From a virus: DNA of 54,970 nt. The stretch covers positions 1 through 54,970 of IMG/VR virus record IMGVR_UViG_3300009068_000049; one strand, given 5' to 3'. The position numbers and the translations under genes are program-made. The notes below the pieces were generated by a model, which was given only the letters and a program-made list of their open reading frames with translations, was not told where the DNA came from and searched no databases. Of the stretch, positions 14,435 to 45,621 are shown one piece after another (positions within the stretch are counted from its first letter, which is position 1; each line of letters starts with the position of its first letter).

Positions 14435-15457
14435 CTATTTCTCGTTTAATAAAAATTTATTGCTAATAACCTTAAATGATATCTTTCTATCAATGCTTCT
14501 TATAACAACACCTTCTCTATCGAAGGATGGATTGTGATAGGATTTTCCATCTGCATAAGATAAAAGTTCCTCTATTGTATCAGGAAGTGTAAATTCAGTT
14601 TCTAATTTAGGTACTGTATCAAGACTTAATCCGTGAATAATATTAACAAAATCAGTTAATCCCACATATTGATGTGTGTCAATATTAAATACATTAAAGA
14701 ACTTAACTGTTTGACCTAATATCTTATAAGGATTCCCTTGTATTCCTTCTCCGATTAACTCACCCTGAAAAGACACGTTATATCCTAAAGATTTCATTTT
14801 GTTTTCTAGATCTAAATTTCTTGCAACTTTCCAGAATGAATTACCTTCAGTTTCCAAAAGCTCTAAGTTTCTAGAGCACGCGCCAAACTCTCCGTCTTTG
14901 TAATAGTATGTAGCGGAACTTCCGTCTAGTTTTTCTGTCACATAGAATTTATGTCCTTCTTCTTTCCAGCTCTCAAAAACTGCAGATAAATTCTGAATTC
15001 TTTCCTCGTCAGTTTTAGGAATGAACCCCGGAAATAGTCCTTTAGCTACTCCAGATAATTCTGCAGGCATAGGAGGTTCATATTTAATGATTCCTAAAAT
15101 TTCAGATACGTCAGATCCCTCTTCAAATTCAACCATAAAATTCTTATATCTCATAAGGACATTTATTGGGATAATTAGACCTTGAGAAACCTGTCCTCTA
15201 AGTTTAATTGTTCTCAACCTAAATCCTTCAGTGCCATCTGCCATTTTTTTGTATGATGACTTTCTAAGAAATTCAAATTCTTCTTTAATTGGTAGGAATG
15301 AATCAATCTCACAGTAAATAACATAATCACCCTCTTTGTGTTCTACATTTTTTCCTACTACTACTTTCCATCCGTTTACAATTGCTAATTCAATAGCATC
15401 TGCGCCTTCAATAGGAAGGATTTCTTTAATTTTCTGAATCGTTGCTAGTTTTCTCAT
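14435..15457 (-). CDS. ATP-dependent RNA ligase, DRB0094/Rnl5-like
   Basis: Two parts are visible. Residues 1-130 are an OB-like N-terminal domain (LATIQKIKEILPIEGADAIE, GDYVIYCEIDSFLP). The nucleotidyltransferase domain follows with motif I EKLDGS (Lys177), then FQGELIGEGIQGN (motif III/IIIa area), REGVVIRS (motif IV) and ISFKVISNKFL (motif V). This is the architecture of the Deinococcus-type RNA ligase that seals 3'-OH/5'-phosphate nicks in duplex RNA. It overlaps the macro-domain gene by 32 bp, so the two are co-expressed. Likely repairs RNA cut by host nucleases. Confidence 0.88.
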   Translation of the reverse strand: MRKLATIQKIKEILPIEGADAIELAIVNGWKVVVGKNVEHKEGDYVIYCEIDSFLPIKEEFEFLRKSSYKKMADGTEGFRLRTIKLRGQVSQGLIIPINVLMRYKNFMVEFEEGSDVSEILGIIKYEPPMPAELSGVAKGLFPGFIPKTDEERIQNLSAVFESWKEEGHKFYVTEKLDGSSATYYYKDGEFGACSRNLELLETEGNSFWKVARNLDLENKMKSLGYNVSFQGELIGEGIQGNPYKILGQTVKFFNVFNIDTHQYVGLTDFVNIIHGLSLDTVPKLETEFTLPDTIEELLSYADGKSYHNPSFDREGVVIRSIDRKISFKVISNKFLLNEK

Positions 15458-24672: not shown

Positions 24673-25013
24673 TGGAACATATAGAATTATACGAGAATTT
24701 TAATCAGAGAACTATGATTCTCAAGCACATGAATTTTGGTGAGATTAAAGTTGAATTAGAAGGAAGTCAAATAAAAGAAGTTGTAAACAATTCTAATACT
24801 AATTTTCCTTTTCAAGTCGGATCATCATGGAACAGATCTATAGAATCATGGGCATGTAACAACAATTTTGTTAAAATCCAAACATGGATGAATAGCAGAA
24901 TGGTTAGAGAAATGGATCCATGTCCAGAACAGAAGATATTTGGGGTGAGAACAAAGGACGTTCCACAAGGCCACGAATGGAGAAGTATATTCCCTAATAA
25001 ATTTAGGCGATAA
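24672..25013 (+). CDS. Hypothetical protein with short leader-like N-terminus, 113 aa
   Basis: Begins MEHIELYENF, matching the leader pattern (hydrophobic at 4, aromatic at 7, Phe10) but with L-x-E at 6-8. The body is not recognised: SWNRSIESWACNNNFVKIQT and PQGHEWRSIFPNKF. ATG 24672 overlaps the previous stop; it converges with the GH19-like gene (11-bp overlap). Confidence 0.55.
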   Translation: MEHIELYENFNQRTMILKHMNFGEIKVELEGSQIKEVVNNSNTNFPFQVGSSWNRSIESWACNNNFVKIQTWMNSRMVREMDPCPEQKIFGVRTKDVPQGHEWRSIFPNKFRR

Positions 25014-25806
25014 GAGTGAATTTATCACCCTGTTCTTTTGCTCTTTGTAAAGATCCTAAGAAATCAGTATTGATATCATTACCCCATCCCGCATTTGCAT
25101 TAGTCATTGCCTTATAAGCTGTTTCCTGATCTCTAAATCCATTTATATCACTAACTCCATATTTTTGAGCCATCTTCGGATCTCTAGCTCTATCTAAGAA
25201 ATAAAGAACTGCAACCTCAGCTGCAACATCAATATCGTTAAGTGAATCGGGATTATTAACTATATCTACTTTTCTACCAAGTTTTCCTATGCCATCAAGA
25301 AGTTTTTGCATTTTCTGGTATATCCCCTTAAAAGTGATACCGTTAAATCCCCTACCTCTATATTTGTAACCCTCGTCAGGTGCATTACCATATTTTCCTC
25401 CATAAATGGTATTATAAAAAGATTCATCATTTGCTTTTAATGAATCGACTTGTGCATCGCTCATTCCACCTAGTTTTGTTTTAAATATACTTTTAATTCT
25501 AGAAGCTGATGTATTAGAATAGCTTGTTTCATTTTTCGGGACAAATCCAGATTCTTTACCAATAACACCTAAAATAGCTCTTTGTGTATAGGGATTAGTA
25601 ATACCCTGTCTTTTCATTGCTTCTATAACTGCCTGAGCATTTTTTGCTCTATCTGCAGGAATTGCTGTGGTAACACCTACCGCTCCACCCACTGGGGATT
25701 CGCCTGGTTTTTTACCTGCTAGTAGATCCATTATACCGGAATACATATCTCCGAAAAGTTGTTCGTTAACAGATTTAAATTCCTCTATAGATTTTAAGTG
25801 CTTCAT
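25003..25806 (-). CDS. GH19-like lysozyme/chitinase-fold enzyme with capsid-targeting-like leader
   Basis: Residues 1-15 (MKHLKSIEEFKSVNE) are the shared leader. After a linker, residues about 60-265 form a GH19-type lytic domain: ILGVIGKESGFVPKNETSYS (catalytic Glu), TIYGGKYGNAPDEGYKYRGR and GFNGITFKG, then AVLYFLDRARD. GH19 phage enzymes cleave peptidoglycan glycan strands. A second GH19 enzyme with a peptidoglycan-binding domain is at 35309. The leader suggests this copy travels inside the virion rather than acting as holin-released endolysin. Confidence 0.78.
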   Translation of the reverse strand: MKHLKSIEEFKSVNEQLFGDMYSGIMDLLAGKKPGESPVGGAVGVTTAIPADRAKNAQAVIEAMKRQGITNPYTQRAILGVIGKESGFVPKNETSYSNTSASRIKSIFKTKLGGMSDAQVDSLKANDESFYNTIYGGKYGNAPDEGYKYRGRGFNGITFKGIYQKMQKLLDGIGKLGRKVDIVNNPDSLNDIDVAAEVAVLYFLDRARDPKMAQKYGVSDINGFRDQETAYKAMTNANAGWGNDINTDFLGSLQRAKEQGDKFTLIA

Positions 25807-31156: not shown

Positions 31157-31560
31157 ATATCTATCTTATCTATTCTTATCACTGATCCTTGTCCGTGCAT
31201 AACCTGGATCACGTAAGAACCTATATAATAAGCTTCACCAGTAAACATATTCAGGTATTTCTCGTCTGTACACTCTTTGCAATATTTTTCTGCATAATTA
31301 AAGGCTATCCATAGTAATTTTTCTCTTGGTTCGTATCCAAGAGAATATTCTCTCCTTACGTATTCATCAGAATCGTATTTTTTAATTAACCTAGATAGAG
31401 CAGAGTCTATATCTGGTTCTGCTAATTCCCTGAATTTTTCGATCCATCTATCCCTTCGCTCATCTTCTCTTTTCATTTTTTCTCCAAATTCTTGTATAGA
31501 TTTTTTACCCTCTTCAGAATCTAAAAAATCCATCATTTTTTTAAACGTGTCATCACTCAT
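31153..31560 (-). CDS. Hypothetical protein, 135 aa
   Basis: Not recognised. Highly charged helical N-terminus (GEKMKREDERRDRWIEKF), then EYSLGYEPREKLLWIAFNYA and a beta-rich end. It overlaps the CCA-adding enzyme gene by 4 bp (ATGA), so it is co-translated with it. Confidence 0.6.
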   Translation of the reverse strand: MSDDTFKKMMDFLDSEEGKKSIQEFGEKMKREDERRDRWIEKFRELAEPDIDSALSRLIKKYDSDEYVRREYSLGYEPREKLLWIAFNYAEKYCKECTDEKYLNMFTGEAYYIGSYVIQVMHGQGSVIRIDKIDI

Positions 31561-32291
31561 AACTCAAATGTTGGTTTTAGCCATAGTCCCCTACTAAAAA
31601 CTAATTTAGTAAAACCAGGTAATGTTTGCTCGACTTCCCTAAATAGTTCAAGAGTTTTTACTGTATCAGCTTTCATCATTTTGAAAGCTTCTTCCCTAAT
31701 TCTTTCTGCAGAAACAACCTTTTCTAGTTTTTCTAGAATCTCTGGTTGAGTCATTGCAGCTATGATATCGGAATGTATATCGAACCCTTTTGTGATAGAA
31801 AATCTCAAAGCTCTTAAGAATCTCAAAGGATCATCCATCATAGTGATATGTGCATCTAATGGAGTTCTAAGAAGACCCATTCTTAAATCTTCTTGTCCTC
31901 CAAAAAGATCTATTAAATTTCCATCCTGAGCAATTGCTAAAGCATTAAGGGTAAAGTCCCTTCTAATAAGATCATCTTCAAGAGTTCCCAATTCCAAAAT
32001 AGGCTGTCTTGTTCCTTCTTTGTATCCCACTTCTTTTCTAGCAAGAACAAAGTCAGCTACAAGACCTTCGTTTGGATCACCCTTAGGAAATTTTGCTCTA
32101 ATAGTAAACATTTCAGGAGTGGAAAGAAATATAGTAAACTCCTTGTGTTCTAGCCACTGTGTCATTATATCAAATCCTTCCTCTACTGTTCTATCTAGGT
32201 TATCAAGTACAAATGTGAAATCAATATCTTTAGAATCTATTCCTAGGATCCCATCTCTTACACATCCTCCTACTTTAAATATCTGTGGCAT
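31557..32291 (-). CDS. cca: tRNA nucleotidyltransferase / poly(A) polymerase family (CCA-adding)
   Basis: Class II nucleotidyltransferase head and neck: FKVGGCVRDGILG, SKDIDFTFVL (catalytic Asp pair), then LIRRDFTLNALAIA, DLFGGQEDLRMGLLRTP, and FLRALRFSI. These match bacterial CCA-adding/PAP enzymes. At 244 aa it lacks most of the body and tail domains (bacterial enzymes exceed 400 aa). ATG 32291 is chosen; an upstream TTG lies within the promoter -7 box. Would restore CCA ends of damaged tRNA or mature the tRNA-like RNA that lacks encoded CCA. Confidence 0.88.
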   Translation of the reverse strand: MPQIFKVGGCVRDGILGIDSKDIDFTFVLDNLDRTVEEGFDIMTQWLEHKEFTIFLSTPEMFTIRAKFPKGDPNEGLVADFVLARKEVGYKEGTRQPILELGTLEDDLIRRDFTLNALAIAQDGNLIDLFGGQEDLRMGLLRTPLDAHITMMDDPLRFLRALRFSITKGFDIHSDIIAAMTQPEILEKLEKVVSAERIREEAFKMMKADTVKTLELFREVEQTLPGFTKLVFSRGLWLKPTFEL

Positions 32292-32306
32292 TTCTTTTAT
32301 TTTTTG

Positions 32307-32343
32307 CAAAGATAGAAAAAACTAATTAAATTAAAAAATGATT
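32307..32343 (-). promoter_or_regulatory. Phage promoter motif before CCA-adding enzyme
   Basis: Minus strand: AATCATTTTTT (32343-32333), 14 nt, TTTCTATCTTTG (32318-32307). Start codon ATG 32291 is 15 nt further. One of six sites with the same blocks and spacing. Confidence 0.72.
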
Positions 32344-35308: not shown

Positions 35309-36145
35309 TTACTTAAGTAATGAGTAATACTCCTTAAAGTGTTTAATTCTATCAGGTAATCCAATAGTTCCACCGTTTACTCTTTTTGTTACTGCTGTAA
35401 CTGTAGCATCGTCTGCTCCTTTATCACAAATACTCCAAAGACTATTGTTATTAAAGAAGAATGCTGCAGACATTAAAGGGTATTTAGTAGCAACTAAATC
35501 AGGATTTCCTAGAATATCATCATCTACGAATTTATCAAAAGAAGCATAGTTAGATTTACCAGTTAATTGGATATAACCTCTACCTCTAAATTTAAATCCT
35601 TCCTTAGAAGCTTCGTCGCCGTTACCCATTCTGCTTCCGTAAACTCTAGAAGCAATCTTTTCTGGCTGTCTTGCATAAGACTCGTTAAGATTGCCAGGAA
35701 AATATTTAGGGAAGATCTTTTTAAGACCGTCAGCAGAGTAGTTAAGATTTTCTGAAACTGCTTTAAAACCTCCAGACTCGTGTCCACACTGTGCTAAGAA
35801 GTGTGCAAGTCTTAAAGTATTTGTAATATTAAATTTAGCTGCTGTATCAGGGATCTGCGCAAGAACTGCATCAGGAACATGTCCCTTTAAATTTTCTAGC
35901 TTGAAAGCTGAAGGTGGTATAGAAACAGGAGTTGCTGTAACTGGAGTTGCTGCAACCGGAGCTGATCCAAACATTTTAGACCAAGTTCCGTCACCAACTA
36001 TACCATCGGCTGTTAGTCCGTTAGCTGATTGCCATTCTTTAACTTTTGATTCTGTACCAGGACCAAAAGAACCATCTGCGGCCAGTCCTAATTTTTCTTG
36101 GAGTTTTTTTACATCTTCTCCTTTAGATCCATTTTTAAGTAACAT
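35309..36145 (-). CDS. Endolysin: peptidoglycan-binding domain plus GH19 domain
   Basis: Residues 1-65 are a PG_binding_1 repeat (LLKNGSKGEDVKKLQEKLGL, DGIVGDGTWSKMFG). A Pro/Ala/Thr linker follows, and residues about 85-275 are a GH19 lytic domain: LAHFLAQCGHESGGFKAVSE (catalytic Glu), KFRGRGYIQLTGKSNY, FFFNNNSLW. Cleaves peptidoglycan glycan strands at lysis. No signal peptide, so release needs a holin. Neighbouring membrane and lipoprotein genes support a lysis cassette. Confidence 0.9.
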   Translation of the reverse strand: MLLKNGSKGEDVKKLQEKLGLAADGSFGPGTESKVKEWQSANGLTADGIVGDGTWSKMFGSAPVAATPVTATPVSIPPSAFKLENLKGHVPDAVLAQIPDTAAKFNITNTLRLAHFLAQCGHESGGFKAVSENLNYSADGLKKIFPKYFPGNLNESYARQPEKIASRVYGSRMGNGDEASKEGFKFRGRGYIQLTGKSNYASFDKFVDDDILGNPDLVATKYPLMSAAFFFNNNSLWSICDKGADDATVTAVTKRVNGGTIGLPDRIKHFKEYYSLLK

Positions 36146-36711: not shown

Positions 36712-36796
36712 TTTCTATCTTACACGGCTTAGGACCGTGATGTTACGCAAGTATCATCTAAGGGTCAAGGAATTCGCAACCACCTTGACCCTTTTT
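36712..36796 (+). ncRNA. Structured small RNA candidate with intrinsic terminator
   Basis: TTTCTATCTTAC (36712-36723) resembles the phage -7 box. After it come three palindromes. Hairpin 1 is CACGG-CTTAGGA-CCGTG (36723-36739). Hairpin 2 is ATG/CAT and TAC/GTA around a GCAA tetraloop with one U-U mismatch (36740-36757). Hairpin 3 is AAGGGTCAAGG/CCTTGACCCTT (36760-36793), followed by TTTTT. CTTAG (36728) can also pair with CTAAG (36758), giving an alternative fold. No known RNA family recognised. A 32-codon ORF starts at 36741, but it runs through the terminator. Confidence 0.65.
36760..36796 (+). terminator. Rho-independent terminator
   Basis: An 11-bp perfect stem AAGGGTCAAGG/CCTTGACCCTT with a 12-nt loop, then TTTTT. 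Strongest terminator in the window; it ends the small RNA and insulates the export operon at 36945. Confidence 0.8.
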
Positions 36797-36944: not shown

Positions 36945-38876
36945 ATGAGGACACTAAGAATGTTAGGTGTTTTGGCGTTTTTTATGACGCTAACACTTGA
37001 CTTATTTTCACAATCTGGACCGCCAGCACCTTCACCGGGTATTTGGGCCATAATCGACACTAACTACACTGTCGGTACAACAGCACAAGGAATTACAACC
37101 GCAAGGATTACTTCTAAAAACACTACGCTTACAAAGTATACGGGTGTTCAATTTAGAGTATTCTACGATAAAATAGCATTTACCAATGCTACAGTATCTC
37201 TTCTAGGATCTCCTACTAACTTAGATTTCCAGTACATAACCAATCCTGCAAACGGTTACATTACTATGACCTTAGTTTATACTGGATCAAGCTCCACGTA
37301 TACATTACCTGACGGTGAGAGATTTCAGATTACTTTTACTCACGCTGCTTCGTCAGTATTTAACAACTTAGCATCTATTACGCCATTAGCTTGGTCAGTT
37401 GTACCAGCAGCTAATACCTTCCAACAATATGCAGCTACCCAGGAAGGAGCAGATACAACTCTAGGTTTACATAATTACGGTGGTAACTTCGTATTTCAAA
37501 ACTTTGATTATCATGGAACATTTGCCAACGTAACTGGATCAGGAGCTAAGAATTTAACATTAGCTTTACAAACAAGACCAGCTGGCGGTAACACATGGTC
37601 ACAGCATTCAACATACGTTACAGATATAAACGGGGACTTTGCTATATCTGTTCCATTAGATACTACTTATTGGGACGTAAGATTAGCAATACAGGGTGAT
37701 TCAATGGCAGTAGGTAACGTTATTTCAACTGCAGATGCTCAATTGATCAACCAATGGGTATTAGGCAACGGTACAATGTCAGGATTCGATTATTATACAG
37801 CAGATGTTAACGAATCTGATAACGTAACTATCACTGACGCATACGGTGTATTTGGTAGAATATCAGGAAGATTCGCAGCATGGCCTAACAACACTAAAGA
37901 CGTTAAATTCTTTACACAATCAGAATACAACACAATCAACGCTTCTTCAACTAACTACACTTCATCAATTACAGGAGCAACTAACTTTACATTCGACATC
38001 TTACCAGGACAGCCGGATTCAGTTGTTTACTACGTGGTTGTACCAGGTGATGCTAACGGTACAGGTTATCATATGGCTCGTGTAACTCCAATCGAAGTAT
38101 TGGTTGGACCTGCACCAGGATTAGAGAATCAGATCTATAATGTAATAGACACTAAAGTAGAATATGATTTTCCAACATCTTCTATAGAAGTTAACGTTCC
38201 ACATATATCAGTTCAAGAGGGAAATTTAGTAAATATACCAGTTAAAATATTAACTAACGGTATAGAATTAAACTCACTACAATTTGGATTAAAATATAAT
38301 GAAGACTTACTTTCGTTCAAAGGAGTTTATTCATCATCAGCAGCAATGAGATGGTTAACTTATATTAATGCAAATGACGGAGAAATAGATTGGGGTGGAT
38401 ATGATATTACTAACAGTCAAAATACTCTAAAAAACGGGGACGAAATAGTAACACTGCAATTCGTAGCACTTCAGCCTCAAAACCAATGGGAGGAGAGTCC
38501 TTTATACACTACTAGAAAATTTGCAGGAAATGCAGCAAATTCTAAAGACTTAACGCTAACTCCAACAAATGGGATACTTCAGGTATTAAAGATATCTAAT
38601 GGACAAATAATAGACGCAAACTCTATGATAGTCTACCCTAATCCGTTCGAAAAAGATGTTACAATAACATTTAGCTTAGCCGAAACTACTAATGCTACAT
38701 TATACATATCGGATTTACAAGGAAGAAAGATAGCTACAATACTAACTGGACAAGTACCAAACGGACAATTTTCTTACTATACTGATCTTGGTAAATTACA
38801 ATCAGGATTATATTTCGTAACTCTAACTACAGAGAACGGAACACCTATAGTAGAAAAAATAGCTAAAATAAAATAA
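36945..38876 (+). CDS. Exported protein with cohesin/dockerin-like parts and T9SS C-terminal sorting domain
   Basis: Signal peptide in residues 1-23 (MRTLRMLGVLAFFMTLTLDL, then FSQ). Middle: beta-sandwich domains and a dockerin-like stretch with AQLINQWVLG and YYTADVNESDNVTITDAYGV. Residues about 410-530: a cohesin-like domain (VQEGNLVNIPVKILTNGIEL, LQFGLKYNEDLLSFKGV). Last 80 residues: type A sorting domain of the Bacteroidetes type IX secretion system (VYPNPFEKDVTITFSL, ISDLQGRKI, LQSGLYFVTL, KIAKIK). It would be exported by Sec, then moved across the outer membrane by the host T9SS. First gene of the operon to 45621. Confidence 0.85.
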   Translation: MRTLRMLGVLAFFMTLTLDLFSQSGPPAPSPGIWAIIDTNYTVGTTAQGITTARITSKNTTLTKYTGVQFRVFYDKIAFTNATVSLLGSPTNLDFQYITNPANGYITMTLVYTGSSSTYTLPDGERFQITFTHAASSVFNNLASITPLAWSVVPAANTFQQYAATQEGADTTLGLHNYGGNFVFQNFDYHGTFANVTGSGAKNLTLALQTRPAGGNTWSQHSTYVTDINGDFAISVPLDTTYWDVRLAIQGDSMAVGNVISTADAQLINQWVLGNGTMSGFDYYTADVNESDNVTITDAYGVFGRISGRFAAWPNNTKDVKFFTQSEYNTINASSTNYTSSITGATNFTFDILPGQPDSVVYYVVVPGDANGTGYHMARVTPIEVLVGPAPGLENQIYNVIDTKVEYDFPTSSIEVNVPHISVQEGNLVNIPVKILTNGIELNSLQFGLKYNEDLLSFKGVYSSSAAMRWLTYINANDGEIDWGGYDITNSQNTLKNGDEIVTLQFVALQPQNQWEESPLYTTRKFAGNAANSKDLTLTPTNGILQVLKISNGQIIDANSMIVYPNPFEKDVTITFSLAETTNATLYISDLQGRKIATILTGQVPNGQFSYYTDLGKLQSGLYFVTLTTENGTPIVEKIAKIK

Positions 38877-38885
38877 GATAAAAAT

Positions 38886-39224
38886 ATGAGCGAAGAAACA
38901 AATGCACCAGAGGCCAACGAGGGATCTTGGTCAGGATTAAAAAAGACAATCATAGGAACACTAACTACAGTAATTGCAGGGGGAGGAGTATGGTTAAGTA
39001 CTACTATGTTTGGTGGTGGTAGTGAAGAACCTTCAGAGGAGACTAAAACCGAACAAACTGGAGGACAAGCACCTATTACAATTAACGTTGAGCAGAATCA
39101 GGAAAATAAACAAAAGACTGAAAATGGCGGAGGTAATACAATTATACACGAAAGAGTTATTGAAAAACCTGCAGCAACACAAGAGCCTGTTAAACCTAAA
39201 AAAGAGGAAGAGGAATCTTGGTAA
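38886..39224 (+). CDS. Single-pass membrane protein with disordered acidic tail
   Basis: A 20-residue polar start (MSEETNAPEANEGSWSGLKK), one Gly-rich transmembrane segment (TIIGTLTTVIAGGGVWLSTT), then a Glu/Gln/Thr-rich disordered tail of 65 residues. Family not recognised. It lies 9 bp after the T9SS cargo gene. Confidence 0.65.
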   Translation: MSEETNAPEANEGSWSGLKKTIIGTLTTVIAGGGVWLSTTMFGGGSEEPSEETKTEQTGGQAPITINVEQNQENKQKTENGGGNTIIHERVIEKPAATQEPVKPKKEEEESW

Positions 39225-39246
39225 AAAAATAAAATAAGATATAAAA

Positions 39247-39891
39247 ATGTCAATGAAAAAATTCTTTAGCAGTAAAACAGATTACGTGAAAGTAGAAGAT
39301 AAAAATAGATTCTACTATATGCTTCAACAGATGCAAGCAAATAGATGGAGAATAACAGCAATTGTATTAGGATTATTTACCCTTATCATCTTGGGTATCA
39401 ATGCTGGAGTATTCTTAGGTAAAACAATCGGAGAAGATTGGAAAGAAATGCTATTAATCTTATTAGGAGCATTCGTAGGTAACTTAAATAAAGTTGTAGA
39501 TTACTGGTTCAACTCAGAAGATAGAGATAAAATGTTAATTCAAAAAGTTGACGAGGAAGATGGTGTAACACTTTCCAATGTAGCTGATGAATCTTATTCC
39601 GCCGAAAAAAAAACTAGTGTCGTAGACGAAGTTTACAAAGAGGAGCCTATAGTAGAAGAACATATCGTAGAGGAATCTATAGTAGAAGAACCTATCGTAG
39701 AAGAATTTGAAAAAGCTGAAGTCGATGAAGATGGCGACGGTGTAAACGATGGTTACGATACTGACGGAGATGGAGACATCGATGAATATTTCGAACACAG
39801 AAACTGTGATCACGTTTGGGGAGACTCAGATGGAGATGGTTTCGAAGAATGCCAAGAATGCGGATTACTAAGAAGCCAAATAGAAGAATAA
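39247..39891 (+). CDS. Two-helix membrane protein with Glu-rich repeat and Ca-binding-type tail
   Basis: Transmembrane segments at about 35-57 (ITAIVLGLFTLIILGINAGV) and 68-84, the second followed by NLNKVVDYWFNSEDRDK as in some phage holins. Then a repeat of P-I-V-E-E units. The tail contains DEDGDGVNDGYDTDGDGDID and SDGDGFEE, the Asp-rich loops of thrombospondin type-3/EF-hand calcium sites, plus a CDH...C-x2-C pair that could bind zinc. Might bridge membrane and envelope in a calcium-dependent way; the combination is unfamiliar. Confidence 0.65.
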   Translation: MSMKKFFSSKTDYVKVEDKNRFYYMLQQMQANRWRITAIVLGLFTLIILGINAGVFLGKTIGEDWKEMLLILLGAFVGNLNKVVDYWFNSEDRDKMLIQKVDEEDGVTLSNVADESYSAEKKTSVVDEVYKEEPIVEEHIVEESIVEEPIVEEFEKAEVDEDGDGVNDGYDTDGDGDIDEYFEHRNCDHVWGDSDGDGFEECQECGLLRSQIEE

Positions 39892-39893
39892 AA

Positions 39894-40640
39894 ATGAAAA
39901 ATCTAATAATCATAATATCTATATTAAGCTTATTCGGTTGTAAAACTTTACAGGCCCAGCCCCCTCAGAATAATGGCGGGGGCATTGGCTCTGTAAAAAC
40001 TGAACAATATCAAGCGGAGTTTGAGAAAAAACAATCTATCAATGATGTTGCTGATTATACAGATACAATACAAGTTCCTATACAGCTTTTAAAAATCGGT
40101 ATAAATGAAGAATTATATGAATTATATCCGGAGCTTAAAGACAAAAGAGTAGGTTTAGGTGTAACAAATATAGTTATAGAATATCTAGAGTATACTGGTA
40201 GATTCATATTTACAGAGGAGAAAGAAGATATCAAACAAAGAATGATTGCTCAGGATAAGGCTTCGGATAAAGGTATATCAGTTAATAAAATAGACGTTAA
40301 AGGGAATGTAATACTAGCCAAATATTTTGTATACATCGAAGTATATGACTTTAGTGTTTCTGAAGATGAGGTTGTTAAGATTAATGGGCAACAAACAACC
40401 ACACAAACAACAAGATTAGGATTACAAATAAAATTTGTAGACGCTGAAACAAGTCAAGTAATTGTAGGATCTGGATTAGGGGAAGCAAGCACAGTAAAAA
40501 CATCAAATATTTTAGGTGATATCTCAGATGATGTCAAATTTAACCAATCAACTATTGGTATATCTACCAAAAAAGCTTTAGAAACTGCATCGTCAAGGGT
40601 GGTAAGCAGACTAATTACAAAAGGCGTATTTAAAAATTGA
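39894..40640 (+). CDS. CsgG-like outer-membrane lipoprotein
   Basis: Lipoprotein signal MKNLIIIISILSLFGC with Cys16. The mature part follows the CsgG/curli-pore pattern: VGLGVTNIVIEYLEYTGRF, FTEEKEDIKQRM, VILAKYFVYIEVYDFS, TRLGLQIKFVDAETSQVI and a C-terminal helix pair. CsgG forms an outer-membrane secretion pore. ATG 39894 was chosen because the lipoprotein signal begins there, although the frame is open further upstream. Placed between exported partners, it may form the export route for operon products. Confidence 0.75.
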   Translation: MKNLIIIISILSLFGCKTLQAQPPQNNGGGIGSVKTEQYQAEFEKKQSINDVADYTDTIQVPIQLLKIGINEELYELYPELKDKRVGLGVTNIVIEYLEYTGRFIFTEEKEDIKQRMIAQDKASDKGISVNKIDVKGNVILAKYFVYIEVYDFSVSEDEVVKINGQQTTTQTTRLGLQIKFVDAETSQVIVGSGLGEASTVKTSNILGDISDDVKFNQSTIGISTKKALETASSRVVSRLITKGVFKN

Positions 40641-42451
40641 GACTTGATGCTATTATATTACTCCTATTTGTTTGTCTGTTTGGTTCTTATAAAATAAGCG
40701 CTCAGACTTACAACTATACCTATACAGATCCATGTACAGGTAATGATAAAACAATTATAGTTCCAATCAACGGAAACGTCACTGTGGGATATTATGGGGA
40801 AATTGGGTCATTTAGCTATAACGATTTTAATAATGGCGTATTTGAGTCTTGGGCAAGTAACATATTTTCGCAATATGGTACGAATAGTCCATGTTCAGAG
40901 ATTGTAGGATTAGGAACAGCAGTAAACATAACACAAAGTACTGCATTAAATGTAATAGGAATATTAAATTCATTATCGACAATATCAGATATTGCAGGAT
41001 CTACAAATATATTAGGGGGAGCAGTAAGCTCTGTATCTAATTCGGGAAACAGTGAGGGATCTAAGAAGAATAAAGGTAACAGTCAAAACAACGGGGAAGG
41101 ATCTAATAACAATAGCCAAGGAAATTCAACCAATTCTGGATCAAATCAGAATAGCTCGCAGGGACAAGAAAACTCGGGGTCTAATCAAGGAAATGCAGGT
41201 GGATCTACACAAGGGGGTGGAGAAAGTTCATCTCCTAGCGTATCAAATACGAACGGAAATACACAGGTGGTCACGCCGGTAAACAATAATACTGGAGCAT
41301 CCACTGGAGCTACTGGAACAACCAATGGAACTACTGTGACATCTAATGGATCATCTGCAGGAACTACTGGAGCATCCACGGGAACTACTGGAACATCTAA
41401 TGAATCATCCAACGGAACTACCGGAACAGCGTCAGGAAATAATACGCAAAACGGTACAGGAAATACTAACGGTGGGGGTACCTCCGGAACAGCACAAACC
41501 ACAGGAAATAGTACTACACAACAGGGATCACAATCTAACGGTCAATCAAGTACGCAGCCTGGAAGTCAAGGGACAGGTGAACAAACAAATAATCAATCAA
41601 CAGGAAATGGAGAATCTGGTAATAATGGTTCCAATGGGAATAATGGTAACACTGGGAATAGTGGGAATGGTTCAGGGAATAATAATTCTAACGGGCAAAC
41701 AGAACAAGGACAGACAAACACGCAATCTGAACAAGGACAAGGCAAAACAAATATAACAGGAGGTGCTTCTACTACAATTAAATCAACCCCAACTAGCAAG
41801 GAAGGTGGAAAACCAACTGTTGTTGGAAGTGCTGATTTTATAGGATTTAATTTTAAGAACTCTGAGGTTAGAACTGGTGCTAAAGCAACAGGAGGATATA
41901 CATCAATGAGATGGGACGGAAAAAGAAGCTATGGTGCTCTTGTAGATTACACATCAGCATTAAAAGGACCTAACATAACAACATTTTATGCTTGGATTAG
42001 ACCTAAATCTATAATATTGGCCTCAGGTACTTTAACAATAGGTTTTGAAGGTAATAAATCTCTATACGGAACATTTGCAGCTGGGCAGATGTTTAATTTA
42101 AAAAAGCCTAAAAATCTTAAATTGTTATACATGGGTACAGTTTCTTACGGAAGCGTATATAGAGAATCATTTTTAGGTACTGCATTAATTGTAGGAGCTA
42201 TGTACGATTTTAGGGTTGGTAAAAGATTTGATATAAAATTAATGAACCTGTTTGTTTATGCTCCTTACGTAAGCTATTACAATGATGTTGTTTTAAAATC
42301 ACCATACGTAATGCTTCCTAGCATAGGTACAAATATTAAAATATCAAAGAAATTTAAATTTAACATAAATGGCGGAGGAGCTTGGGATTTGAAAACAAGT
42401 GCTTTAAATTATACTATAACATGTGGTACAAGATTTGTAATTGGGCAATAA
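40637..42451 (+). CDS. Outer-membrane beta-barrel protein with long Gly/Asn/Ser/Thr-rich linker
   Basis: Signal peptide (AIILLLFVCLFGSYKISAQ), an N-terminal globular part to about residue 125, then about 250 residues of low-complexity Gly, Asn, Ser, Thr and Gln. The last 210 residues have alternating aromatic beta strands (FIGFNFKNSEVRTG to CGTRFVIGQ) typical of an outer-membrane barrel. TTG start at 40637 overlaps the CsgG stop (TTGA). The linker could display the N-terminal domain far from the membrane. Strong candidate for a surface-exposed protein that blocks or binds. Confidence 0.7.
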   Translation: MRLDAIILLLFVCLFGSYKISAQTYNYTYTDPCTGNDKTIIVPINGNVTVGYYGEIGSFSYNDFNNGVFESWASNIFSQYGTNSPCSEIVGLGTAVNITQSTALNVIGILNSLSTISDIAGSTNILGGAVSSVSNSGNSEGSKKNKGNSQNNGEGSNNNSQGNSTNSGSNQNSSQGQENSGSNQGNAGGSTQGGGESSSPSVSNTNGNTQVVTPVNNNTGASTGATGTTNGTTVTSNGSSAGTTGASTGTTGTSNESSNGTTGTASGNNTQNGTGNTNGGGTSGTAQTTGNSTTQQGSQSNGQSSTQPGSQGTGEQTNNQSTGNGESGNNGSNGNNGNTGNSGNGSGNNNSNGQTEQGQTNTQSEQGQGKTNITGGASTTIKSTPTSKEGGKPTVVGSADFIGFNFKNSEVRTGAKATGGYTSMRWDGKRSYGALVDYTSALKGPNITTFYAWIRPKSIILASGTLTIGFEGNKSLYGTFAAGQMFNLKKPKNLKLLYMGTVSYGSVYRESFLGTALIVGAMYDFRVGKRFDIKLMNLFVYAPYVSYYNDVVLKSPYVMLPSIGTNIKISKKFKFNINGGGAWDLKTSALNYTITCGTRFVIGQ

Positions 42452-44130
42452 TATTATTCACCTGGACTTCTTTAAGTGCACAGAGTGTTGTGGCACCAAG
42501 TGCATCATCATACCCGCAAAATACATCTAACCAAATTGTAAGTGGATTCTCGGTAACTGGATTTAATACCTCTTCAACTCTACTAATCACAATAGGATTG
42601 GTTAATCCCCCATCAGGAACAACATTAAGGCTAAATACAACTACAGGGGTAACTGCTAGCACGGGATACGCACTTGCATCAAACTTTACAAGAATAAGTT
42701 TTACAGGAACATTAGCTAATGTTAATACAGTGTTGGGTTCGCTAAGATTAAATACAGGATCATCCCCAGGTAATGTCTATATTGCAGTAACTGCTACAGA
42801 GAATCCTGTTGGATACTTTTATCTTCCGTCAAATGGGCATTTTTATAGGCCAATAGCAACTACTGCTTTTTATAATGCTGCTAAAACAGCCGCTGCAGCT
42901 ACAGCATTTAAAGGACAAGCAGGTTACTTAGTTACTATAACATCTTCGGACGAGGATTTGTTTATATACAATAACGTACCTCAAACAAACATATGGTTTG
43001 CACTCTCGGATGTTGCTCAAGAAGGTTATTGGAGAATAGACGCTGGTCCGGAAAACGGAACATTAATTAAAACTGCAAACGGTCAAACGGCAGGTAACAT
43101 AGCAGGGCAATATAATAACTGGGCAGCTGGGGAACCTAATAATTCTGGAGGTGAACATTATGCTGTTACAAAGTGGAACGGATCCCAATGGAACGATTTA
43201 CCAAACAATTACAATTGCGCTTATGTTATCGAGTACGGTACATGGACCGATCCTGCAAATCAAACTTTTACAGATTTCTTTACAGGATTTGTTACACACC
43301 AAATATCGTGTACTGCTGCAAATGCACCAGCTGCTCCTACCGGAGTTAATGGAAGCAGAATGCTAGCAGGAACGGTATCTTTATCCGCAACACCACCCTC
43401 AGGATCTACTGTTGATTGGTATGCTAATTCTATAGGAGGAAATGTTTTATCGGGAGGATTAGGCGTTACTACTTATACTACACCTAGTATTTCAAGCACA
43501 ACAACCTATTATGCTCAAGCGAGAAACACAACTAGTGGGTGTGTTAGTTCTAGTAGAACTGCTGTAGTTGCCACTGTAAATTATCCTATTCCATTTACTT
43601 ATTCAGGAACTATATACAACTCTAAAGCTGTCGCTGTTCAAGGCATATCAGTTAAATTGCTCTATAAACCAAAAGCTTCAGGATCGTATACTTTATTTCA
43701 AACTTATACAACTAACTCATCTGGTGTTTTTTCTATCACAACCTCATTAGATATTGCAGTTTATGATTTTCAGGTTGTTATCGACAATTTAACTATCAAT
43801 CAACCAAATAGTCAAGATATAACATTCTTTACAAATAAGGTTCTAAATAAGAATTTCGTTCCGATTGATTACTATAGAATGGATGCAAACGTCAATTCAG
43901 CAATGACAATTTCAGATATATACTTGATATACAAAAAAATCAATGGTAATTCTTGGCCATCTGGAGTACCTAACTATAGGATTCTGACACAGCAGGAATG
44001 GACATTAATAAATTCAGCAGTTGCTAATCTAGTACCTACATATCCAGGATCACAAAGTATAGCATTAACTAATCCGACAGCCGGTGGGTCTTCGGTATTT
44101 TATATAATAAAAACAGGAAAATCAGACTAA
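42421..44130 (+). CDS. Exported C-type lectin domain protein
   Basis: Signal peptide MWYKICNWAIILFTWTSLSA. Residues about 115-280 form a C-type lectin fold: FKGQAGYLVTITSSDEDLFI, NIWFALSDVAQEGYWRIDAG, WAAGEPNNSGGEHYAV and WNDLPNNYNCAYVIEYG, with the Ca/sugar-site EPNN and WND motifs. An Ig-like CHU-type domain follows, then a carboxypeptidase-regulatory-like and dockerin-like end (YYRMDANVNSAMTISDIYLI). Likely binds glycans at the cell surface. ATG 42421 overlaps the barrel gene by 31 bp. Confidence 0.8.
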   Translation: MWYKICNWAIILFTWTSLSAQSVVAPSASSYPQNTSNQIVSGFSVTGFNTSSTLLITIGLVNPPSGTTLRLNTTTGVTASTGYALASNFTRISFTGTLANVNTVLGSLRLNTGSSPGNVYIAVTATENPVGYFYLPSNGHFYRPIATTAFYNAAKTAAAATAFKGQAGYLVTITSSDEDLFIYNNVPQTNIWFALSDVAQEGYWRIDAGPENGTLIKTANGQTAGNIAGQYNNWAAGEPNNSGGEHYAVTKWNGSQWNDLPNNYNCAYVIEYGTWTDPANQTFTDFFTGFVTHQISCTAANAPAAPTGVNGSRMLAGTVSLSATPPSGSTVDWYANSIGGNVLSGGLGVTTYTTPSISSTTTYYAQARNTTSGCVSSSRTAVVATVNYPIPFTYSGTIYNSKAVAVQGISVKLLYKPKASGSYTLFQTYTTNSSGVFSITTSLDIAVYDFQVVIDNLTINQPNSQDITFFTNKVLNKNFVPIDYYRMDANVNSAMTISDIYLIYKKINGNSWPSGVPNYRILTQQEWTLINSAVANLVPTYPGSQSIALTNPTAGGSSVFYIIKTGKSD

Positions 44131-44720
44131 TGAAAAATATATTACTATCCCTATTAATAACACTACCATTACTTAGTTTATCACAAAAAAATCTAAGGGA
44201 TTCAATCTACGTTAAAACTAATATGTTTGAAATCGTATACTCTGAAAAATTACAACAGCCTAAATTTATTAGATACACGGTACAATGCCCAAATGGAACT
44301 GCTCCAAGGACTGGAATGGATTTTTATGTTTGTGATTCGATATTAACTTCAGACAATAAAGATTATGAAAATAACCCTTACGATAAAGGACATTTAGCTC
44401 CAGCAGCAGACTTTAATTGCACTAAAGAATCTTTATATAAGACATTCACATATTTGAACTGTTCGTTACAACAAGAAAATCTAAATAGAACAACTTGGAG
44501 ATTATTAGAAGTAAGAGAAAGAGAACTTGCTAAAACTAATAAAACAGTTACTGTTGAAATTAGATGTATTTTCTCTAACAAATCTACAGTTTTACCAACA
44601 GGAGCAACAATACCAGATGGATACATTAAAACTATAAAATACGGAAATAAGGTTGAAAAATATTATTTCAAAAACGAAAAGCCAGCATCAACAGACTACA
44701 CTAAATATATTATTAAATAA
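44130..44720 (+). CDS. Exported DNA/RNA non-specific endonuclease
   Basis: Signal peptide MKNILLSLLITLPLLSLS followed by a compact NUC domain. It has NPYDKGHLAPAADF with the catalytic His of the D-[RK]-G-H motif, and YLNCSLQQENLNRTTW with the metal-binding Asn. Relatives (Serratia nuclease type) cut DNA and RNA with Mg. Exported form would degrade nucleic acid outside the cytoplasm, for example DNA of a superinfecting phage entering the periplasm. One-base stop/start overlap with the lectin gene. Confidence 0.85.
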   Translation: MKNILLSLLITLPLLSLSQKNLRDSIYVKTNMFEIVYSEKLQQPKFIRYTVQCPNGTAPRTGMDFYVCDSILTSDNKDYENNPYDKGHLAPAADFNCTKESLYKTFTYLNCSLQQENLNRTTWRLLEVRERELAKTNKTVTVEIRCIFSNKSTVLPTGATIPDGYIKTIKYGNKVEKYYFKNEKPASTDYTKYIIK

Positions 44721-45172
44721 TGAAAAAATTTATCATATTTTTCGGACTTGTACTTCTTGGTATAACAGCACAAGCACAAGATTGTGTAAAGGTAGACACA
44801 GTCTACGTTACAGCAAAGCTTAGAGAGCTAGGATCTAGAGATATTAGATTCGGTATAAGACAAATAGTTGAAGAAGAATTATCGCAGAAGTTTTGTCTTT
44901 CTGATGAGGGAGAACCTGTTAAAGTTGAAATATTCTATTTCGGTCTACCTAAAACGACAATAAGAGTTGTTGGTATAGAAAAGAGTAATACAATAACTCA
45001 AGTAGGGGTTAGACTACACTATAAAGGAAATAAATACGAAGGAATAGGAGAATCTGATACAGAGATAAGAGCTATTATGATAGAAGTACAGGAAGGATCT
45101 ATACCTTTCGAAAAAATGACAGTGTCATCAGCTCTTAAAAAAGCAATACACGAAGCAGCATTAAAACTATGA
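44720..45172 (+). CDS. Exported protein of unknown function, 150 aa
   Basis: Signal peptide MKKFIIFFGLVLLGITAQAQ with two Cys in the mature part (DCVKV, KFCLS). The rest is an alpha/beta fold with GIRQIVEEELSQKF and VGVRLHYKGNKYEGIGES. Its size and place after a CsgG-like gene recall periplasmic partners of curli pores, but similarity is not demonstrable. Overlaps both neighbours. Confidence 0.65.
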   Translation: MKKFIIFFGLVLLGITAQAQDCVKVDTVYVTAKLRELGSRDIRFGIRQIVEEELSQKFCLSDEGEPVKVEIFYFGLPKTTIRVVGIEKSNTITQVGVRLHYKGNKYEGIGESDTEIRAIMIEVQEGSIPFEKMTVSSALKKAIHEAALKL

Positions 45173-45621
45173 TCAGGATATACTGGATTTTATTGTTCTT
45201 CTTTACCTTCACATTCTCCTATGGTCAAATTAAAGTAGCGGATGTTGGCGACGGATGGAAAAATAAAGTAGATAGTGCAATCTCGATCATTCAAAAATAT
45301 GATATCGAAAAATATAATTTCCTGATTGAAACGTGTACAAATATAGGATATTGGAAAGGAACTTTCTCCACAACAGAAGGTGATTCAATGATAACAATAG
45401 CTGTTAATGATATAAAGGGACCTAATATCTATAATATTGCTGCTATTCTAGTACATGAATCGATGCACCTTTACATTAAACAGCTTTACGTTAAATTGCA
45501 TCCCAATGTGGAAGAAGCTCTTTGCTATAAATACGAGCTTAATTTTCTCATGAAAATACCAGGAGTAGATCCTTGGCTATTATCAAATGCTGTAAAAATG
45601 ATAAATTACTACGAGAAATAA
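45169..45621 (+). CDS. Exported zinc metallopeptidase-like protein
   Basis: Signal peptide (YWILLFFFTFTFSYG) then a body with ILVHESMHLYIKQ, an HExxH zinc motif, and EEALCYKYELNFLMK about 20 residues later supplying a third ligand Glu and Cys. This is the pattern of small gluzincin/DUF-type peptidases. Last gene of the operon; it overlaps the convergent minus gene by 13 bp. Confidence 0.72.
   Translation: MIRIYWILLFFFTFTFSYGQIKVADVGDGWKNKVDSAISIIQKYDIEKYNFLIETCTNIGYWKGTFSTTEGDSMITIAVNDIKGPNIYNIAAILVHESMHLYIKQLYVKLHPNVEEALCYKYELNFLMKIPGVDPWLLSNAVKMINYYEK

Follow-up and report, generated by a model that had tools for sequence, protein, structure and literature searches.

To our knowledge, the means by which large Bacteroidota phages breach the outer membrane have not been established. 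Phage-encoded CsgG was reportedly described in pelagimyophages in 2020, and its role is said to have been debated since. Phage CsgG with CsgF is known from pelagiphages (PMC7029224, PMC9599517) and from the Methylophilales phage Melnitz, where a role in lysis was proposed independently (PMC9004378), and phage-encoded cargo of the type IX secretion system (T9SS) is known from Cryophage in the form of an endoglucanase, a GH39 enzyme and a PA14-domain protein (PMC7468147). Here we describe a block of nine genes (g1 to g9) in the IMG/VR virus fragment IMGVR_UViG_3300009068_000049, whose full 54,970 bases are called the window below. Phage CsgG and phage T9SS cargo have each been known separately, and their combination here, as a CsgG-like pair, a barrel, a T9SS scaffold and dockerin-tailed lectins, appears to be new, in that we found no description of it in the open-licence literature. 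Our preferred explanation, which we hold tentatively, is that the block is a module with which large phages of Bacteroidota export proteins to the host envelope and display them there, around lysis or egress.

As in a preliminary description made from the letters of the sequence, the nine genes follow one another on the plus strand, separated by 2-22 bp or overlapping by 1-31 bp:

g1, 36945..38876, plus strand: exported T9SS cargo with putative cohesin and dockerin-like modules
g2, 38886..39224, plus strand: inner-membrane protein with a single transmembrane segment
g3, 39247..39891, plus strand: holin-like protein with two transmembrane segments
g4, 39894..40640, plus strand: outer-membrane/periplasmic protein with a modelled CsgG fold
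g5, 40637..42451, plus strand: exported protein with an N-terminal domain, a disordered linker and a predicted 12-strand outer-membrane barrel
g6, 42421..44130 from ATG (a longer TTG open reading frame starts at 42382), plus strand: exported C-type lectin with Ig_7 and a dockerin-like tail
g7, 44130..44720, plus strand: exported DNA/RNA non-specific endonuclease
g8, 44720..45172, plus strand: exported, apparently minimal CsgG-like paralogue of g4
g9, 45169..45621, plus strand: exported DA1-like metallopeptidase

The count of seven exported and two membrane proteins also holds. Seven of the nine pass, as exported, a simple signal-peptide rule written for this analysis, and g2 and g3 are membrane proteins without an export signal that carry one and two hydrophobic segments, respectively (g2 also trips the rule, owing to its transmembrane helix). 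Of the 71 remaining genes of the window, 7 are flagged by this rule, and about 3 of these look real. Relative to the nearest relative (locus L002), all nine genes are under purifying selection, with ratios of nonsynonymous to synonymous substitution (dN/dS) from 0.02 for g4 to 0.22 for g5, and are therefore functional genes.

A search for this gene neighbourhood in other phages, which the preliminary description had proposed, returned it many times over. The g4 protein has 78 relatives among the viral contigs of IMG/VR (53-97% identity, on contigs of up to 373 kb), and the block is collinear in about 78 contigs as well as in the cultured Flavobacterium phage immuto, which grows on Flavobacterium sp. 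LMO8 and carries it as gp012-gp019. Nearly all loci have g1, g2, g4, g5 and g8, whereas the presence of g3, g7 and g9 varies; in distant relatives the block shrinks to a minimal core of g2, g4, g5 and, in most cases, a holin-like protein, with an endolysin alongside in several. A terminase profile was matched in 11 of the 13 cassette-bearing records tested, and in immuto. One scan of the GTDB genomes yielded no clear copy of the block in a host chromosome and only two contigs from metagenome-assembled genomes, of 254 kb and 12.6 kb, the larger of which is most likely a phage because it carries both a terminase and a GH19 endolysin; derivation from a host surface locus, raised beforehand as the outcome that would speak against a phage system, was rejected on this result. 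Among named phages the window has no relatives at the DNA level. By these sequence comparisons we take the block to be phage-borne, from a lineage of large viruses of Bacteroidota.

The most conserved gene of the block is g4. An AlphaFold2 model built from 28 sequences (predicted local distance difference test, 69) was matched by Foldseek to CsgG in all of the first 17 PDB matches (E from 3e-8), and PelC and LptE-type folds ranked next; TM-scores against CsgG were modest (0.42-0.50), and the best viral match of g4 is a protein annotated as CsgG. On this model, g4 has a CsgG fold. The Pfam CsgG profile gave no match to g4 and one sub-threshold match (8e-5) among 14 cassette-bearing records, and the pelagiphage HTVC008M, as a control, was positive at 1.8e-54 with CsgF present. 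CsgF was absent from the 14 cassette-bearing records and none of CsgA, CsgB and CsgE was found among the nine operon proteins, to which that search was confined; a complete curli system was accordingly rejected. Direct sequence searches gave neither g4 nor g8 a significant match to a solved structure. Of the CsgG-like lipoprotein described earlier, the CsgG-like part stood and the lipoprotein part did so only locally: the lipobox is present in the window and in a minority of relatives, mostly near ones, and in most orthologues the signal ends AQ|IGS. The small exported protein g8 is indeed exported, and its identity had been missed. It aligns to the g4 profile with a probability of 97 (hhalign, E 5e-11), and the g4 profile hidden Markov model picks up a g8 orthologue at 4.8e-5, so that the operon has two CsgG-like proteins, g8 being a second, minimal one paralogous to g4. 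Like the type VIII (curli) secretion genes of pelagiphages and Melnitz, then, this is a multigene block of a tailed phage that includes a CsgG-fold outer-membrane protein; unlike them, it has a g4 too diverged for the Pfam profile, no CsgF and a second, minimal CsgG-like protein, here the CsgG-like proteins are partnered by a barrel, a T9SS scaffold and dockerin-tailed lectins, and endolysin and holin-like genes are adjacent.

The barrel behind a long linker noted earlier is borne out in g5, which is present in 75 of the 78 loci. AlphaFold2 gives it an N-terminal domain (residues 24-120), a disordered Gly/Ser/Asn/Thr linker of some 270 residues (about 122-390) and a predicted 12-strand outer-membrane barrel (394-603), for which Foldseek returned FapF and autotransporter barrels (E about 1e-6). 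The order of N-terminal domain, linker and C-terminal 12-strand barrel is that of FapF, of Pseudomonas amyloid export, and of classical autotransporters, but the linker of g5 is long and disordered and the likeness is one of predicted fold, with no sequence relation shown; we do not claim homology because such barrel folds are common. The nuclease call for g7 is well supported (Endonuclease_NS 2.7e-19; PHROG nuclease 2.1e-17; motif DKGHLAPA), and the gene is missing from many members. For g9, the HExxH motif was read from the sequence as HESMH...VEEALC, and the match to the DA1 peptidase family (PF12315, E 0.0012) falls below the Pfam cut-off.

The first gene, g1, has both marks of T9SS cargo, a signal peptide and a type A C-terminal sorting domain (residues 563-640; Por_Secre_tail 1.9e-12, TIGR04183 4.7e-11). 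Between its N-terminal domain and this tail lie a dockerin-like module (about 186-390) and a putative cohesin (about 400-560), parts already suspected in the preliminary description; the g1 family profile (alignment A4) matched a cohesin (6kg8, E 0.0025), a T9SS C-terminal domain (8glj, 0.0099) and a dockerin (4uyp, 0.024) in PDB at the expected positions, with E-values that are weak. BLAST shows the tail of g6 to be homologous to the middle module of g1, a link that had been overlooked. The front of g6 is, as described, a C-type lectin (PDB match E 7.8e-5) with Ig_7 (3.3e-16), and the lectin slot is the most variable of the block: behind g5, nearly all phages encode a protein with this same dockerin-like module at its end and a front part that differs between phages. 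Diversification of this lectin by a retroelement was considered and rejected, there being no reverse transcriptase (RVT_1) in 15 records. The phage genes of Cryophage likewise have T9SS type A sorting domains and vary between phages of Bacteroidota, but the cargo here is a cohesin/dockerin-like scaffold in a conserved operon. As in cellulosome scaffolds, a cohesin would sit on an anchored scaffold and a dockerin-like module on several co-encoded proteins; unlike in cellulosomes, lectins replace enzymes, the module matches are weak and binding is only predicted.

Several relatives vary on this theme. In immuto, g1 is divided between two exported proteins, gp014 and gp015 (L105:11598-13422), one with the dockerin-like module and the other with the cohesin and a T9SS-like tail, an arrangement that would be expected of modules able to act as separate partners; a similar split is seen in L061. 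The most distant relatives have a g1-like protein without the tail and, between it and g2, a small protein with a lipobox-like signal; in L070 (8989-9378), L072 (8938-9303) and L073 (9255-9626) the small protein resembles a stand-alone sorting domain. Extra genes lie between g5 and g8 in L009 (8250-9119 and 10052-11059), L028 (13364-14158) and L061 (13318-14133), which suggests more exchangeable cargo.

Two small membrane proteins separate g1 from g4, as the preliminary description had it. The first, g2, occurs in 67 of the 78 loci, in each case immediately ahead of g4 or the neighbour of g4; it has one hydrophobic segment (residues 21-37), a likely N-in orientation and a charged/Gln-Asn tail in the periplasm with a conserved W at its end. 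The second, g3, has transmembrane segments at residues 36-52 and 68-84, and the 'calcium-type loops' once attributed to it are an Asp-rich tail confined to the near clade. In the slot between g2 and g4, two-transmembrane proteins of three groups replace one another, with up to 16 swaps of occupant on the g4 tree, at least one of them a clustering artefact (L043 has g3). Two of the groups are distantly related; a relationship of g3 to the other family of this slot was unsupported (probability 2.7), and g3 has no relatives among named phages. Members of two groups directly precede an endolysin in five loci (L030, L031, L033, L034 and L035), and the immuto homologue gp192 directly precedes the endolysin gp191 and the annotated holin gp190. 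Such a setting favours a holin-like role for the slot proteins, although no curated holin model matches them.

Linkage to the endolysin, which the preliminary description overlooked together with the holin-like genes, extends to the block as a whole. In the window an endolysin adjoins the operon and is divergent from it:

GH19 endolysin, 35309..36145, minus strand: PG_binding_1 and Glyco_hydro_19 domains; phrog_181, 3e-64

Of the 13 long records (100-373 kb) that have a GH19 endolysin, 9 have it no more than 5 kb from g4; random placement would give about one, by our own estimate, which ignores relatedness. It lies equally close in 25 of 40 loci with enough flanking sequence on both sides, and the 36 loci with this endolysin fall into three layouts (20 upstream on the minus strand, 8 upstream on the plus strand and 8 downstream on the plus strand) that change up to 16 times on the g4 tree, with 'none found' counted as a state. 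These arrangements suggest that the operon is linked to lysis, and it is because of the linkage to endolysin and holin-like genes that we place its role around lysis or egress. Like holin-endolysin cassettes with two-component spanins, the locus co-encodes an endolysin, a small two-transmembrane protein and inner- and outer-membrane partners; unlike them, it shows no homology to known spanins or curated holins. A 199-residue phrog_3000 protein that partly resembles an endolysin profile stands between the endolysin and g1 in many loci (L015:1825-2421 and relatives; the cluster spans 23 loci). The window also encodes a second protein similar to endolysin profiles (25003-25806, minus strand; phrog_181, 2.7e-20).

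We infer functions for all of the block proteins, and hypothesize the following mechanism. The host T9SS would anchor the g1 scaffold on the surface of the infected cell, where exchangeable dockerin-tailed proteins, the lectins, would dock on it. Meanwhile g4 and g8 might assemble with g5 into rings at the outer membrane, with g2 as the tether to the inner membrane; this export or opening complex would work in concert with the holin-like protein and the endolysin. When the cell lyses, the outer membrane would give way and the surface of the cell or its debris would be lectin-coated, after which the secreted nuclease and peptidase could clear debris from the progeny. In the least certain step, the lectin coat would serve egress by blocking re-adsorption to debris or by capturing neighbouring cells. 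In its most specific form, in which a cellulosome-like cohesin/dockerin display via the host T9SS and a spanin-replacing outer-membrane machine of CsgG pair and barrel make up one lysis-coupled egress apparatus, we think the idea unlikely. The surface-remodelling system around a CsgG-like pore that was first proposed is thus retained in its envelope and surface export and its CsgG-like centre; exclusion and aggregation, offered with it, were not singled out. Outer-membrane opening, debris masking, neighbour capture and exclusion are all candidates for the selected function.

Several observations weigh against a module for lysis or egress. T9SS export and lectins have no obvious use in lysis, the cohesin and dockerin matches are weak and binding of g6 to g1 is only predicted, and g6 has no T9SS tail, which leaves its route to the surface unexplained (it might cross the outer membrane by way of the g4/g8/g5 complex, or be carried on g1). 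The slot proteins between g2 and g4 match no curated holin family. Three long records have the endolysin 45-154 kb away. In immuto, some 27 kb separate the block from the holin and endolysin, and it sits beside replication genes, directly after ribonucleotide reductase and a resolvase-like gene; in L031 it likewise directly follows ribonucleotide reductase (L031:5981-7705), so that expression may be middle rather than late. Such neighbours would suit superinfection exclusion or surface disguise, in which the scaffold and its variable lectins mask receptors, a periplasmic nuclease (the exported g7) cuts the DNA of incoming rivals, and proximity to endolysin is mere co-regulation of envelope genes. 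The variability of the lectin slot fits this reading, and superinfection defence has been proposed for phage curli (PMC9599517) and superinfection raised for the T9SS cargo of Cryophage (PMC7468147). However, it leaves unexplained the repeated re-association with endolysin in different orientations and the holin-like genes inside the block, and the nuclease is often missing; we regard it as unlikely.

Another alternative is that the block only replaces spanins: g2, g4, g8 and g5 would make up a complex across the envelope that ruptures the outer membrane once the endolysin has acted, and g1, g6, g7 and g9 would be passengers. The minimal core of the distant relatives, with its endolysin alongside in several, the strong constraint on g4 and the topology of g2, which resembles that of an inner-membrane spanin, all point this way, but g1 is nearly as widespread as g4, most g4 proteins are not lipoproteins and none of the nine matches a spanin family, the likeness of g2 being one of topology alone; such a restricted role seems distinctly improbable. 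We give least credence to cell-cell adhesion ('sibling capture'), in which the lectins of infected cells hold neighbours close so that progeny find hosts. It was proposed for pelagiphage curli (PMC7029224) and would make use of exchangeable lectins on a T9SS scaffold, but no amyloid subunit was found among the nine proteins, CsgF was absent from the records searched, and no clumping was seen with Melnitz (PMC9004378).

Beyond the block, the window encodes a major head protein, a tail fibre, endolysins, a Dda-like helicase, thymidylate synthase and RNA ligase. Upstream of g1, at about 36762-36796, an inverted repeat read by eye (GGGTCAAGG...CCTTGACCC) is followed by T residues and is likely a terminator, which would make the operon its own transcription unit; promoter patterns of the Bacteroidota and sigma-70 types upstream of g1 either did not exceed chance or lacked conservation. 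Elsewhere, a poly(A) polymerase-like head domain (31557-32309) and a separate phage nucleotidyltransferase (22892-24082) suggest, with the RNA ligase (14435-15457), tRNA-end repair.

With this block, a second and unrelated phage lineage has CsgG-like proteins sitting beside lysis genes, and their conserved partners can be tested in culture, with phage immuto on Flavobacterium sp. LMO8. The block suggests that a phage may use the T9SS of its host to display swappable lectins, and its usual place beside the lysis genes suggests that it prepares the surface of the infected cell for virus release.

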